Of a stretch of DNA of 55,663 nucleotides, positions 5,421 through 40,542 are shown piece by piece (within the stretch, counting starts at the first letter, position 1; every line of letters begins with the position of its first letter). The DNA lies in assembly GCA_031264865.1 (NCBI GenBank), contig JAISDJ010000007.1, positions 1 through 55,663 of the forward strand, in the 5' to 3' direction. The notes below the pieces were generated by a model that was given only the letters and a program-made list of their open reading frames with translations, was not told where the DNA came from and searched no databases. The position numbers were made by a program, and so were the translations under genes. The stretch is from Tannerellaceae bacterium (GTDB lineage Bacteria > Bacteroidota > Bacteroidia > Bacteroidales > Tannerellaceae).

Positions 5421-8400
5421 ATGAAGAAAACAATATACATTAAAATAATACTTTTATTTGTTTCTCTTACACTTGGAATTACAGAGGTAAAGGCGCAAAT
5501 GAATATTTATGTATCTCATACTGCCTCCGCAACAGGTGGAGGTTCTGGTTCGAAGACTTCTCCGTATAATATAAGCGAATTATTTGACAATGTGATTAAG
5601 ACTAAGCTGAAGTTTGCGACCGATACGGTTAATATCTTTTTTGAAAAAGGAGGTACGTATTACACAGGTTCTTTTGCATCTCGCGGCTATAACGGATTTA
5701 ATGCAGATGCCTGGAATGGTAAAACCGTCATATTGGATGCTTTTGGGAATGGTTCTCCCGTTATATTCGATGGTAACAACCAAAACGTATTCGCTGATAT
5801 AGATCGCGGACGTTCAGCAAACGACCAGTTTACATTAAACGTTACAAACATAATCTTCCAAAATTTTGAAGGAAATAATGGCTATCCTTTTATATTTGTC
5901 AATTACTGGAATACATTAAATATGGACAATGTAACTATACAGAACTGTAATAATATCCAGGGATATTTATTTCATATAAATTGTAATTCGGCGCAATTTA
6001 CCCTTTCCAATAGTAGTATTATTAATAATAACAGAGGTGATAATCACTTGATTTATCTTCAGAATGCTAAGGTTGCATATATCTACAATAACACCTTTTC
6101 TTATAACACTACAACCGCTCATGGTATAAATATAGCAACAGATGATGTTAATTTCTTTAATAATACCATCTACAATTCGGGAACGTTGCGTATCAACAAC
6201 AGCTCAACTAAAAAAAGAATTATCAACAATTTAGTTGTAGGGACATCAACTATTTCTTTAGAAGGAATGAGCCTCGGACATCGCGCCGGATTAAAGAATA
6301 ATGTTTCGGGAACAGAATACTGGCAGGCAGGTAATACATTAACATTCTCCTTTACCAATACTCAGTTTGAACAATATATTGATACGCTACTGACAAATAA
6401 TAACAAACCGGGCGGTCGGTTCCATAAACTAAAAAACACATCCGACCCCAATCATTTGTTTTTGGGGAAAGGAGTTTCCGTTCCCGATTTACAAAAGGAT
6501 GTTACGATCTATTTGGATAAAGATCAATCCGGCAATAAACGTTCGGATCATTTCCCAATATCTTTAGGCGCTATTGATTATTGGAATTGTATATTATCCC
6601 AGTCTTCTATTATAACGATCTTGTTTAACTCAGACGAAGGAAGCAAACTTCCTTTGCCAAAAGAAATTGATTTAAATGAATTTGTTTTAGAAACACCCCC
6701 AGGAGTTGATCACAGTCAATTAAATTTTGAATTGGTAAACAAATCCATGAAATATGGAACGCTATCCAACCTGACACCTGATAAAAAAACAACTTTTACC
6801 CCGGCTACTCCGGGAGGTAAACCAGTAGGCATTAATATAACGGATTCATTCTCTTATAAGGTTAGTCAGATGATAAACGGTGTTTTGTACGAAAAAACAG
6901 CCTTTGTTAAAGTGATTATTGTAGACATGAACGAACCGGTCGGTTATATAGATCCGGCCAACTATCCGAGTACCTGTTTTGATTTCATGGGTAAGATTAC
7001 ATTTTCCGGGGATCATCGATTTATGACGGACAAAGGCCATTATTTAGTTGGATATGCTATCCCGCTTGTGGCGGATTTGAATAAAGACGGCTATCCGGAA
7101 ATTATAGCTTTTGGTAAAAGAGGCACTGGTTCCAGCAGTCATTATGACTCTGTCCACATTTTTAATGGACAAACGGGGAAGCATATTTGTGGTTTACAAA
7201 TAGCTTCGAGTGAATTTTCACACGACGGCTGGCATCCTTCTCCTTCGCCGGCTGTCCTTGTAGATGCAAACAGAGACGGGATTGTTGAGCTTATCATGGC
7301 ATTTCCTCAGGGTGGAGGAGGAGATTCAGGATATGCAGGAAAAGTTGTTTCTTTTAATCTCCGCCCAAAAGACTCTACTTATGTGTTGGAACATAATAGA
7401 ACGTTTCCTGTCAGTTATGGAGATGGCATAACATCCAAAGCTTCACTTCCCACACCACAAGTATGTGATTTAGACGGAGACGGCACGCCTGAATTGCTTG
7501 TCTACAATAAAGTATATGACGCCGTAAGTGGAGAATTATTATTTACCATCGACCAAAACTATATGGGGCGCAACCCGATGGCCAGATACGATAATGACAG
7601 ATTTCAGGTGTTTCCCTATATTTATGATTTAGATGGAGACGGCATTTATGATATCGCCGCTGGCGGGAAAATGTATAAAGTCACCAAACCGGGTGGCGTT
7701 TGGAATATACAAGAAATAGTATTGAACAGTAGCGATGATCCGGGCGATGGTTTTACCGGAGTTGCAGATATTGATGGCGACGGTTTACCGGATATTGTTA
7801 CTGTTCGTGCGGTTACAAGGGATAATAACGGAAGTATTTTAGTTACGGTATGGAATCCCGGATTCTCCTCCAATGGCAAAGCGAATCCTCGTGTCATGGC
7901 TAAAAAAACGGTTAAATTCATAGACAGAGGCGGATACGGTAGTAATTCGTATGTATATATAGGAGACATTAACGGCGTTGAATATGGAGGGAAACGCCTG
8001 CCTGAAATTGCTGTCTTGTCAGGAAGTGTAGAATTTACTAATGAAGAAGTACATCCCAGCGTATCAGGCTTAACAGGAAGAAAGACCAATGGAGAAGGCG
8101 TTATTTTCGCACTCACTTTTGATGAAAAAGAAAAGGATATCACCCAAAAACTCAAATTCTCATTCTTTTTAGAACATAATGATGACTCAGTGGATACAGG
8201 GTTTACCATGTTTGATTTCGACAATGACGGAATTATGGAAATCTGTTACCGCGATAGAAGGACTTTACGAATTATAAAACCGACAAAATCATATGTCTCA
8301 TTAAATGAAAAAAGTGAAGACGTTATCTTATTTAATAAGACTGTCTATTCCGGAACAGGTTTTGAATATCCGGTTATTGCTGATATTGACAATGATGCGT

Positions 8401-27744: not shown

Positions 27745-28162
27745 TCACCGACGATAATTTCCTCCCGTCGGTTCGTAGAGTGGGAAGTTGCGATAGCCGG
27801 CGTCGCGGAGTTTGCCGTCGGCAACTAACCGGCGCAGGCGACGCCTGCCTGTCGACTCGGTAAAACCGCAAAGGGAACAGAACTCACGGCGGGTGATATG
27901 GGCATTGTCGAGGAAATGACGGATAACCTAATCCTTCCAAATGAATACGCCGGCCTAAAGCTAATTCGTTTGCCATTACTTCAACAAGAGAAATTAAAGA
28001 GGCTTTTACGTCGGCAGACGTAAGCGTACACATATCATGTATGTACTGAGCTAACTGGTCGGTATTCATCGTACCGGTTGTAACTACCCTTGCATGTAAC
28101 TTCGGACGTCCATCACTATCCTTTGAAACAGGATTTTCATAAAAGTCGTAATGTAAACTCAT
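27745..28162 (-). pseudogene. HU-related (HU-HIG-type) DNA-binding protein, internally deleted and frameshifted
   Basis: N-term MSLHYDFYENPVSKDSDGRPKLHARVVTTGTMNTDQLAQYIHDMCTLTSADVKASL...RIHLEGLGY aligns with the 39769-40380 protein. Its C-terminal module is readable in another frame as VIRHFLDNAHITRREFCSLCGFTESTGRRRLRRLVADGKLRDAGYRNFPLYEPTGGNYRR*, matching ITGIQFRQLCSFTHSTASRHLKRLVTEGKLQTIGHRRSPLYEPVEGHYHR. Confidence 0.8.
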
Positions 28163-28218
28163 CGTTTTAATGGTTTATTTATGATTATTATTGTTTGGTT
28201 TACCAAATCTTCAACCGA

Positions 28219-28296
28219 TCACCTCTGTGATCGGGATCCGTCACCCTTGTGAACGACTACGATCACACTTGTGATCGACTCCGTTCACGAGTGTGA
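28219..28296. repeat. Array A: four dyads TCAC-N4-GTGA at exact 22-bp period
   Basis: TCAC begins at 28219, 28241, 28263, 28285; GTGA begins at 28227, 28249, 28271, 28293. Unit 1 extends to CCGATCAC-CTCT-GTGATCGG. Confidence 0.95.
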
Positions 28297-28315
28297 CCGG
28301 TTAAAATTGATCCGG

Positions 28316-28323
28316 CAAATATA
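28316..28323 (-). promoter_or_regulatory. Predicted -7 box TATATTTG for the HU-like pseudogene
   Basis: Plus strand CAAATATA, 20 bp beyond the array; would place the array in the transcribed 5' leader. Confidence 0.45.
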
Positions 28324-28427: not shown

Positions 28428-31268
28428 ATGAGAAACCTTGTATTGTTATTTACACTAATCTCACTTTGCCCATTGAGCCTATCCGCCCAGTGGAATGCTT
28501 TTGTAAATAATTACGGGAAAGATTTGTTCGGGAGAGGGGCTAAGACATGGAATATACAGATATATAATAAAAACCGTATTTACTTAGGAAATCAAAAAGG
28601 ACTGTTAGAATACAATGGGAACGATTGGAATCTTTATCCGGTAGACAACCAAAATGATGTTCGTTCGGTACATATCTCTAAAAGGGAGAACAGAATATAT
28701 GCGGGAGGAGATGGCGAATTTGGTTACTTTGAACCGGATCATACCGGTCGGTTAATTTATACCCGGTTGTCTGGTGAGGTTATTGCAAACCATCATTTAT
28801 CCGGCGGCTATTGGGGGATATACGAAATAGACAACCTGATCTACTATGTTTCCGACAGGCATATAATCAAACAAATCGACACTGAATTTACCATTATTCA
28901 CAGTGAGCATAAGATTGATTGTTCCAATATCGTAAATGGCGTATTGCTGATAGGTACAACGAATGGTGTCCGGATGTTAGTGGGCAATTCTTTATTATCG
29001 GTGGTTGGCGACGAGATCGTACGCGGGAAAACGATACGCGCCATCGTTCCCTATCAGGAAGGTAGTTTGATAGCAACCGCTTTCGACGGTTTATTTTATA
29101 CTACCGACAAAGAAATAATCCCTTTCACCACGGGCGTAGAAGAGTTTATGCGACGTAATGAAATTTTCTCGCTGGCTGTTTCTTCCAATTATATTGCCGT
29201 AGGAACCATTCATAAGGGATTAGTTTTAATAGATACAGACTCTCACCAACCTTTTTATTATAACGAACAGAATGGTTTACAAAACAATACGATTCTATCC
29301 TTAGCGTTCGATGCCCGGAAGAATCTTTGGCTGGGGCTTGATGACGGCATTGATTATATACAACTCGAATCGCCTTTTTCAAATTTATATACTTCGCCCA
29401 ATGCATACGGCAGCGGATATGCGGCGTTGCTTGCAGACAACCGCTTATTGTTGGGCACGAACCGCGGACTGTTTTATGCGGAAACGCCTATCGTACTGGG
29501 TGAAAACCCGCCGAAATTCCAGCTAATCCACGAATTAAGCAGTCAGGTTTGGGGGATAACAAAAGTAAATAATGATATTTTTTGTCTGCACGACAAAGGA
29601 TTGTATTGGTTGAAAGAGAAAGAGATTGAGTTGATCCCCGGCCTCAGAGGCGCTTTATCCTGCATTGTCATAAAAGGACGGCCAGACATCTGTTTGATTG
29701 GCGCCTATGAAGGACTGTTCCTTCTTAAGAAAACAAACAATAAATGGTCTGTCCGGAAAAAAATCATGGATGCCACCACCTGGTTGAAAAACATAGCCTT
29801 CCTCCCACCCGATATTCTTTGGATTCGCGCACTCGACCAAGGAATGATCCGTCTGCAAGTAGATACTGTTGATTTTTCCATAAAAGAATACACGCTATAC
29901 GGTCGTTCATCCGGTTTTGAATCAACCGATGATTTATACCTTCACCAGATAGAAGATTCCGTATTCTTTTCGTCGGCATCCGGTATCTATACGTACGATG
30001 AATTACAGAAACGTATGATTCCTTCCGTACATCTGGCCAGCCATTTCCTGACGGATGAAATATATCCTGTATTTAAGCAATCGGGCAACGACGTTTATGC
30101 GCTTTCTTCCCATACGGTTCAGGCAAGAAACATCTCTTCCTCAGACAGTCTTTTGTCGGCTGTTTATCCGTTTAATTTCAATCAAATCGAACTTATACGG
30201 TATTATGAATCCATGGCTTCTATGTACGATTCCCTGGTTATTATACCGAATGGCAATGGTTTTGCCCTCTTAAACAAAACCATCTGTTCGAAAGAAGAGA
30301 AAAAAGAACTGTATATACGAAATGTGTATATCACCTATCCGAAAGATTCACTGATTTATACAGACAATTTCTTACATACCGGCATTACGCCTGAAATAAA
30401 CTACGACGAGCGTTCGCTTCGTTTGGAATATGCCGTTCGTATGTTTGGTCCTGAGAATCCTGTAAAATACAGGGTAAGACTAAAGCCTGATATGCAATGG
30501 ACGGAATTTTCGCCCATATCGGTAAAAGAGTACAACAACCTGAAAGAAGGAGATTATGCCTTTGAAGTAGAAGCGTTATTTGTTGATGGGAGCGTTTCTT
30601 CCGCCTCATTCTCCTTTGCCGTTCTTCCCCCTTGGTATCGAACCATCTATGCCTGGATTATTTACCTCGTCCTGTTTTGGCTGTTGATATACGTTTTATA
30701 TGAAACCGACAAACGCCGTATCCTGCGAAGCAGGAAAACGGAAGCTGCCAAAAGTGAAAACGAGATCCACCTGAAAGAACAGGAGATCATTAAACTGAAT
30801 ACCGAAAAACTAGAACAGGAACTCACGTTCAAAACACAGGAGTTGGCCAATTTAATGATGAATGTTTCCCGGAAAAACGAGATACTGACTACAATTAAAG
30901 AAGAGTTGTATAAAGTATCCGCCGAATTAAAAGGAGAATCGTCGGCCAGAGCCAAACGAATGTTGATTATCCTGAATAATAGTATCGACTCGAACATTGC
31001 TTCGGATGATGTGCTGAAACGTTTTGAAGAACAATTCGACTTAGTTCATAATAACTTCACCAAAAAACTAAAAGAATATCATCCTGATTTAACCGTTTCC
31101 GAATTAAAAATGTGTATTTATATAAAGATGGATCTGTCTTCCAAAGAGATTGCTCCTCTGTTGAACCTATCTATTCGCGGCATTGAGACCTTGCGTTATC
31201 GTTTACGAAAAAAGCTAAAACTTGAGCATGAGGATAGTCTTCGCGAATATTTAGATAAATTATCCTGA
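28428..31268 (+). CDS. PUL regulator: periplasmic Reg_prop beta-propeller and Y_Y_Y sensor, TM helix, coiled coil, LuxR-like HTH
   Basis: MRNLVLLFTLISLCPLSLSAQ signal; IYAWIIYLVLFWLLIYVLYE TM; C-term LTVSELKMCIYIKMDLSSKEIAPLLNLSIRGIETLRYRLRKKLKLEHEDSLREYLDKL. Confidence 0.88.
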   Translation: MRNLVLLFTLISLCPLSLSAQWNAFVNNYGKDLFGRGAKTWNIQIYNKNRIYLGNQKGLLEYNGNDWNLYPVDNQNDVRSVHISKRENRIYAGGDGEFGYFEPDHTGRLIYTRLSGEVIANHHLSGGYWGIYEIDNLIYYVSDRHIIKQIDTEFTIIHSEHKIDCSNIVNGVLLIGTTNGVRMLVGNSLLSVVGDEIVRGKTIRAIVPYQEGSLIATAFDGLFYTTDKEIIPFTTGVEEFMRRNEIFSLAVSSNYIAVGTIHKGLVLIDTDSHQPFYYNEQNGLQNNTILSLAFDARKNLWLGLDDGIDYIQLESPFSNLYTSPNAYGSGYAALLADNRLLLGTNRGLFYAETPIVLGENPPKFQLIHELSSQVWGITKVNNDIFCLHDKGLYWLKEKEIELIPGLRGALSCIVIKGRPDICLIGAYEGLFLLKKTNNKWSVRKKIMDATTWLKNIAFLPPDILWIRALDQGMIRLQVDTVDFSIKEYTLYGRSSGFESTDDLYLHQIEDSVFFSSASGIYTYDELQKRMIPSVHLASHFLTDEIYPVFKQSGNDVYALSSHTVQARNISSSDSLLSAVYPFNFNQIELIRYYESMASMYDSLVIIPNGNGFALLNKTICSKEEKKELYIRNVYITYPKDSLIYTDNFLHTGITPEINYDERSLRLEYAVRMFGPENPVKYRVRLKPDMQWTEFSPISVKEYNNLKEGDYAFEVEALFVDGSVSSASFSFAVLPPWYRTIYAWIIYLVLFWLLIYVLYETDKRRILRSRKTEAAKSENEIHLKEQEIIKLNTEKLEQELTFKTQELANLMMNVSRKNEILTTIKEELYKVSAELKGESSARAKRMLIILNNSIDSNIASDDVLKRFEEQFDLVHNNFTKKLKEYHPDLTVSELKMCIYIKMDLSSKEIAPLLNLSIRGIETLRYRLRKKLKLEHEDSLREYLDKLS

Positions 31269-40437: not shown

Positions 40438-40515
40438 CCACCCAGGTGAGACAGTTATATCACCTAGGTAAGATAGATATACCACCTGGGTAGGATACTT
40501 GTTTCACCTGGGTGA
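40438..40515. repeat. Array B: four dyads YCAC-N4-GTRR at exact 22-bp period
   Basis: CCACCCAGGTGA, TCACCTAGGTAA, CCACCTGGGTAG, TCACCTGGGTGA starting at 40438, 40460, 40482, 40504. Confidence 0.95.
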
Positions 40516-40534: not shown

Positions 40535-40542
40535 CAAAAATA
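40535..40542 (-). promoter_or_regulatory. Predicted -7 box TATTTTTG for the HU-like gene
   Basis: Plus strand CAAAAATA, 20 bp beyond array B. Confidence 0.4.

Follow-up and report, generated by a model that had tools for sequence, protein, structure and literature searches.

Arrays of palindromes spaced 22 bp apart precede most of the HU-HIG-wHTH genes that we sampled across the Bacteroidales and recur at dispersed sites, mostly without an intact HU-HIG neighbour, in families that each match one paralogue. We interpret the HU-HIG-wHTH proteins as paralogue-specific, array-binding nucleoid-type regulators, which are predicted to repress their own genes and to bind the dispersed family in trans; judged from the sequence comparisons set out below, this reading has a probability of about 0.66. 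The window, that is, the whole stretch of 55,663 nt of Tannerellaceae bacterium DNA that was analysed, holds two such arrays, one at a decayed gene (locus A) and one at an intact gene (locus B), and array A would be what a recently broken gene has left behind.

Array A consists of four exact TCAC-N4-GTGA palindromes at 28219, 28241, 28263 and 28285, spaced exactly 22 bp apart as the preliminary description had it (Table 1); dinucleotide shuffles give a chance expectation of 0.41 single cores per window, and a search for further 4-unit arrays with periods of 14 to 39 bp and at most one mismatch per unit found none elsewhere in the window. Array B matches it in span and period, but three of its four cores are imperfect. 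At both loci the array lies 19 bp downstream, in gene orientation, of a TAnnTTTG box, and the start codon of the HU-HIG gene follows 56–57 nt further on (56 bp for array A); the distance of 20 bp to the box given in the preliminary description should read 19 bp. A spacing of 22 bp amounts to about two helical turns and keeps the units on one face of the DNA; together with the usual number of four units and the outer inverted arms, this geometry points to a nucleoprotein complex that would assemble cooperatively on that face.

Table 1. Features of the two array loci (positions in the window).
Feature	Position	Strand	Remarks
Array A, four 22-bp-spaced TCAC-N4-GTGA palindromes	28219..28296	.	
Array A including outer inverted arms (AACCG ... 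CCGGTT)	28213..28302	.	Outer 8 bp conserved among dispersed A-type arrays (1.13 bits)
TATATTTG, Bacteroidota -7 type promoter box of the array A locus	28316..28323	-	Gap as in array B and many homologues
Leader, array A to start codon	28163..28212	-	
Decayed A-type HU-HIG gene, N-terminal part (HU-HIG positions 1-83 of 125)	27914..28162	-	E 4.5e-23
wHTH end of decayed A gene, out of frame after internal deletion	27748..27927	-	E 4.9e-13; 44/50 identical to intact G005 gene
Divergent sensor/regulator gene adjoining array A (context only)	28428..31268	+	Weak Y_Y_Y and LuxR-type HTH matches, both under family cut-off
Array B, four 22-bp units, B family	40438..40515	.	
TATTTTTG, promoter box of gene B	40535..40542	-	
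Intact B-type HU-HIG + wHTH protein, 203 aa	39769..40380	-	PF18291 107.5 bits (cut-off 26.2); model pLDDT 89

Both genes belong to PF18291 (HU-HIG), a family reportedly defined in a 2017 analysis of the HU/IHF superfamily; even the decayed gene A scores 85.6 bits. The AlphaFold model of the gene B product has a C-terminal winged helix of three helices and a two-strand wing (residues 137–196), for which the Foldseek matches of the structure were weak and included MarR-type chains. In gene A the winged helix is present only out of frame, an internal deletion having fused the N-terminal HU-HIG part to the gene's own wHTH end. The closest relative found is an intact gene of G005, a congeneric species, with which gene A shares 64/80 residues in the N-terminal part and 44/50 in the wHTH; the C69 paralogue, which is truncated by a contig end so that any upstream array would fall outside the sequence, shares 41/56 and 43/57 residues with gene A in the same two parts. 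Since the promoter box survives, the decay is possibly recent, in support of what had been proposed. In three A-type internal deletions (window 27900–27960, L041 and L051) the right endpoints cluster near where the wHTH coding region begins, which may mark a deletion hotspot.

Outside the half-sites, arrays A and B are 29% identical, at the level of the shuffled null (26 ± 5%; 673 of 2,000 shuffles equally good); the two have only core and geometry in common, and the divergence beyond the core noted previously is borne out. The array of the intact G005 gene, compared with array A over the same positions, reaches 0.47 against a null of 0.28, a value equalled in 2 of 2,000 shuffles. These comparisons support the conclusion that the non-half-site sequence of array A tracks its own protein clade and not array B, and this resemblance of a dead locus to a related intact one is among the evidence for paralogue-specific recognition.

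To evaluate the association beyond the window, we scanned the 300 bp upstream of 79 non-redundant full-length HU-HIG-wHTH genes of Bacteroidales for the best palindrome-array period among 20 periods tested. The set combines members of the genus, named genomes such as Parabacteroides goldsteinii, P. gordonii, P. bouchesdurhonensis, Bacteroides faecis and B. congonensis, and members of the order at large. The best period was 22 bp for 51 of the 79 genes, where about 4 were expected, compared with 2 of 19 short HU-HIG genes that lack the wHTH; a first scan with the number of units fixed at four gave 48/79 and 2/19. This contrast favours the proposed array-binding role, and the 28 genes with another best period count against it; some of their arrays are visibly imperfect, and L016 and L029 are among the few with no array at all. 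The gap from promoter box to core is 18–20 bp in about a dozen genes of clear register. The core itself differs by clade (TCAC/GTGA, CGAC/GTCG, CGCC/GGCG, GACC/GGTC and others), and array distance correlates with protein distance over the HU and wHTH domains (Mantel rho 0.30–0.39, P=0.002), a correlation that plain co-inheritance of array and adjoining gene could also produce. The earlier idea of a shared, paralogue-specific module thus stands across genomes and in the genome of the window itself, as a promoter box, an array of four 22-bp units and a HU-HIG gene with clade-specific sequence; what it missed is the dispersed array family. Such arrays also occur in P. distasonis and B. finegoldii upstream of genes annotated just as 'HU family DNA-binding protein'; a P. 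distasonis HU-HIG-wHTH gene with a 4-unit array (L317) adjoins rpsL. Two HU-HIG genes without wHTH (L229 and L230) have a 22-bp palindrome pattern upstream, and the rule may extend past wHTH proteins.

Being downstream of the promoter box, the array is presumably transcribed, and this position, together with its palindromic sequence, is what speaks for a structured 5' UTR RNA that controls HU-HIG translation. The mispairs argue otherwise: on the sense strand the dyads hold 108 G.T and 108 A.C pairs, so that G.U is not in excess over A.C on the mRNA strand, and this equality argues for symmetry at the level of DNA, not RNA. With no Rfam match for the array, with the -7 box gone from most dispersed copies and with some of these lying between convergent genes, RNA structure was rejected and the 5' UTR reading is very improbable.

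The genome of the window carries about 20 dispersed arrays in three families, which lie mostly beside dead promoters or gene stubs. All 16 that were tested are closest to one of three resident HU-HIG loci (10 A, 5 B and 1 C), in favour of paralogue-specific binding. This genome is a draft MAG of 376 contigs with an estimated contamination of 6.9%, but isolates give the same pattern, and it recurs in the other genomes: at least four array types, with about 20 or more arrays in all, in the isolate Parabacteroides sp. PH5-46 (G002), 13 A-type sites and at least one C-type site in G005, which has A- and C-type genes, and 11 sites of one gene's type in P. bouchesdurhonensis, located from 0.47 to 3.49 Mb of a 3.73-Mb contig, where 28 of 33 unit-pair matches have no half-site mismatch although two were allowed. 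Similar, unannotated sequences occur in P. distasonis records that apparently belong to one assembly. Because the search pattern included the half-sites, their conservation is partly ascertainment, and the informative parts are the spacers, the close flanks and the mismatch distribution. Spacers (0.75–1.26 bits) and the first 8 flanking bp (1.08–1.41 bits), which lie outside the search pattern, are more conserved than the N4 centres (0.36–0.61 bits) or flanks 20–40 bp out (0.44–0.63 bits); this favours the array-binding reading, though it may partly reflect common descent of the copies. The preliminary description had held that arrays occurring independently of HU-HIG genes would undo the module interpretation. 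They do so occur, and since the copies form families that each match one paralogue, the idea is extended rather than refuted. In G002, loci L105–L109 show more array types, TCACCTAGGTGAGAATTTTTTC and TCACCGCAGTGATCTTTTAAG, for which a cognate HU-HIG gene was not identified in that genome. A separate high-copy 22-bp tandem array, TCGCGTTCGTGAGA(A/C)GGCGACC, lies at about 5700–5820 of G000:C349 (L056), with no obvious HU-HIG link in the stretch seen.

A narrower reading, in which array A acts on nothing but the recently broken HU-HIG gene, as its autoregulatory operator, would agree with the intact promoter box and leader and with the single internal deletion that broke the gene. We regard this as unlikely, given that about 20 further loci lacking an intact gene retain similar arrays, conserved in units and spacers.

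The genomic settings of the arrays were compared for 36 dispersed copies in two genomes, of which 15 lie in divergent gaps, 12 in tandem and 6 in convergent ones (3 unclassifiable). Their neighbours include clpB, glgA, panC, dapB, dcuB, lytB, sigma/FecR pairs and SusC/hybrid-sensor regulators, and a specific link to a polysaccharide-utilisation regulator was not found among them. PUL-specific regulation, which the sigma/FecR and hybrid-sensor neighbours had suggested, was dropped in view of the mixed housekeeping neighbours and the convergent gaps; for the same reasons neither PUL control alone nor promoter function alone is likely to account for the array set as a whole. Array A itself sits between two divergent genes and could be the operator of the divergent regulator at 28428, a possibility favoured by the sigma factor/FecR or hybrid-sensor regulators that adjoin some of the other arrays. 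We find this quite unlikely, as the neighbours of other arrays are housekeeping genes of mixed function and convergent gaps hold 6 of the 33 arrays that could be classified. The nucleoid-type reading also has to accommodate these settings: arrays between convergent genes (L094, L095, L101 and L105 among them) are unlikely to have a promoter role, and the neighbours have no common function.

Positions were then compared between species. The glgA|panC gap measures about 100 bp and has no array in nine genus members; G000, G005 and G010, three close relatives, have an A-type array there, G002 has one of a different paralogue's type, and two further close relatives have other sequence. As this one gap is empty, A-type or of a different type depending on the relative, arrays evidently come and go at fixed chromosomal sites. 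Their positions turn over between species, which counts against the nucleoid-type reading. In G008 the gap (L290) carries an unrelated inverted-repeat sequence, GGAGGCGTTTGGAAATAAATCAT ... ATGATTTATTTCCAAACGCCTCC, which makes this spot an apparent insertion hotspot. G000 and G005 have one exact array position in common. For the distant species pair G000 and G312, three arrays lie within a few kb of each other's positions, which is only suggestive of conserved neighbourhoods; arrays L233, L237 and L241 of G312 share the neighbourhoods (patB, panC, clpB) of window array B, L043 and L042 and occupy different gaps a few kb off. Macrodomain clustering was not evident in the one near-complete genome, that of P. 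bouchesdurhonensis.

Most dispersed copies in the genome of the window comprise the promoter region, the array, the leader and the first 10–20 HU-HIG codons and then break off, and some jump to the 3' end of the HU-HIG gene; dispersed copies (L041, L051, window A and L048) thus derive from the gene unit, either by internal deletion or as stubs. The promoter box is lost in 14 of 16 copies. Five A-type copies (L039, L045, L046, L048 and L054) have the same dead promoter, CATTCG for TATTTG, and three of them (L039, L048 and L054) a +1 frameshift in common; copying therefore went on after gene death. B-type copies have similar limits (about -86 to +178) and, in most cases, a mutated -7 box. Both in the five A-type copies and in copies L040, L052, L053 and L055 of the B type the sequence around the promoter is kept and the -7 box is mutated; the copies that multiplied are the promoter-dead ones, with CATTCG in the A type and mostly TTTTTA in the B type.

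A rival reading takes the arrays to be primarily mobile, MITE-like sequences that arose from units of array and HU-HIG gene and were spread by some recombinase, possibly HU-HIG-aided, with their conservation reflecting mobilisation and not host benefit. We put it somewhat below even odds: the derivation of the copies from the gene unit, the copying past gene death, the similar limits of the B-type copies, the varying occupancy of the glgA|panC gap and the position common to G000 and G005 all favour it, whereas the structure and age of the copies do not. The array ends are inverted repeats, yet inspection by eye found no evident or consistent terminal inverted repeat of the larger shared unit and no target-site duplication, and neither a transposase in the array/gene unit nor a junction chemistry was recognised; the copies, at 70–85% identity, are old. 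The gene family has no relatives among IMG/VR viral contigs, a further point against the mobile reading; since six distant ones (26–32% identity) occur in short, unannotated faecal 'Bacteriophage sp.' records only, a phage origin was rejected. A bolder proposal, which we hold tentatively and think rather unlikely, is that HU-HIG-wHTH genes and arrays form a self-dispersing element with no known transposase, in which the protein would assist the copying or insertion of its four-palindrome array. Each paralogue would spread a solo-array family of its own, and these arrays could then serve as changeable nucleoid or regulatory anchors.

For the preferred reading, that of paralogue-specific nucleoid-type regulators, we envisage that dimers would occupy the palindromes in a cooperative manner, with half-sites and spacers recognised by the wHTH and the DNA bent or bridged by the HU domain. 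A protein sitting on its own array, between promoter box and start codon, would repress its own gene, and the surviving protein of each family would bind that family's dispersed arrays in trans. Array A would then be the site left after a recent internal deletion in the adjacent A-type gene, and the A-type protein that remains in the genome, with the C69 product as the candidate, would still bind it.

Several known systems resemble parts of this arrangement. As in RAYT transposase/REP systems, a family-specific protein gene with palindromes is accompanied by many non-autonomous intergenic palindromic copies, and the dispersed palindromes match the gene's own flank; unlike them, the protein is of the HU-HIG + wHTH type, matching HU-type families only and not an HUH/Y1 transposase, and the units are tandem with 22-bp spacing, usually four per site, at about 10–20 sites instead of hundreds. 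MatP/matS (and likewise Noc/NBS and SlmA/SBS) pairs a sequence-specific nucleoid protein with about 10–25 dispersed cognate sites, as predicted for binding here; the present system differs in its 4-unit arrays, its several paralogous protein/site families per genome and its site turnover between species, the protein is HU-type, no MatP homologue, and in P. bouchesdurhonensis the sites (0.47 to 3.49 Mb of the 3.73-Mb contig) do not point to a single macrodomain or to confinement at the terminus. MITEs share the internal-deletion derivatives that multiplied after gene death, and differ in that a transposase partner and target-site duplication were not found here. Iteron and multi-operator autorepressors share the regular helical-phase spacing and an array at their own promoter, whereas here solo arrays are also dispersed far from any cognate gene. 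Among open-licence papers, searches on HU-HIG, TIGR01201, REP-like repeats, HU arrays and MatP in Bacteroidetes returned no description of these HU-HIG arrays.

HU-HIG proteins are numerous in gut Bacteroidales, where their annotation says no more than 'HU family DNA-binding protein', and they now have predicted paralogue-specific sites. As arrays have been located in named species, including human gut Parabacteroides and Bacteroides, HU-HIG function can now be tested directly. Should the sites prove to spread along with the protein family, they would constitute an HU-based analogue of REP/RAYT or matS, with several orthogonal versions per cell.
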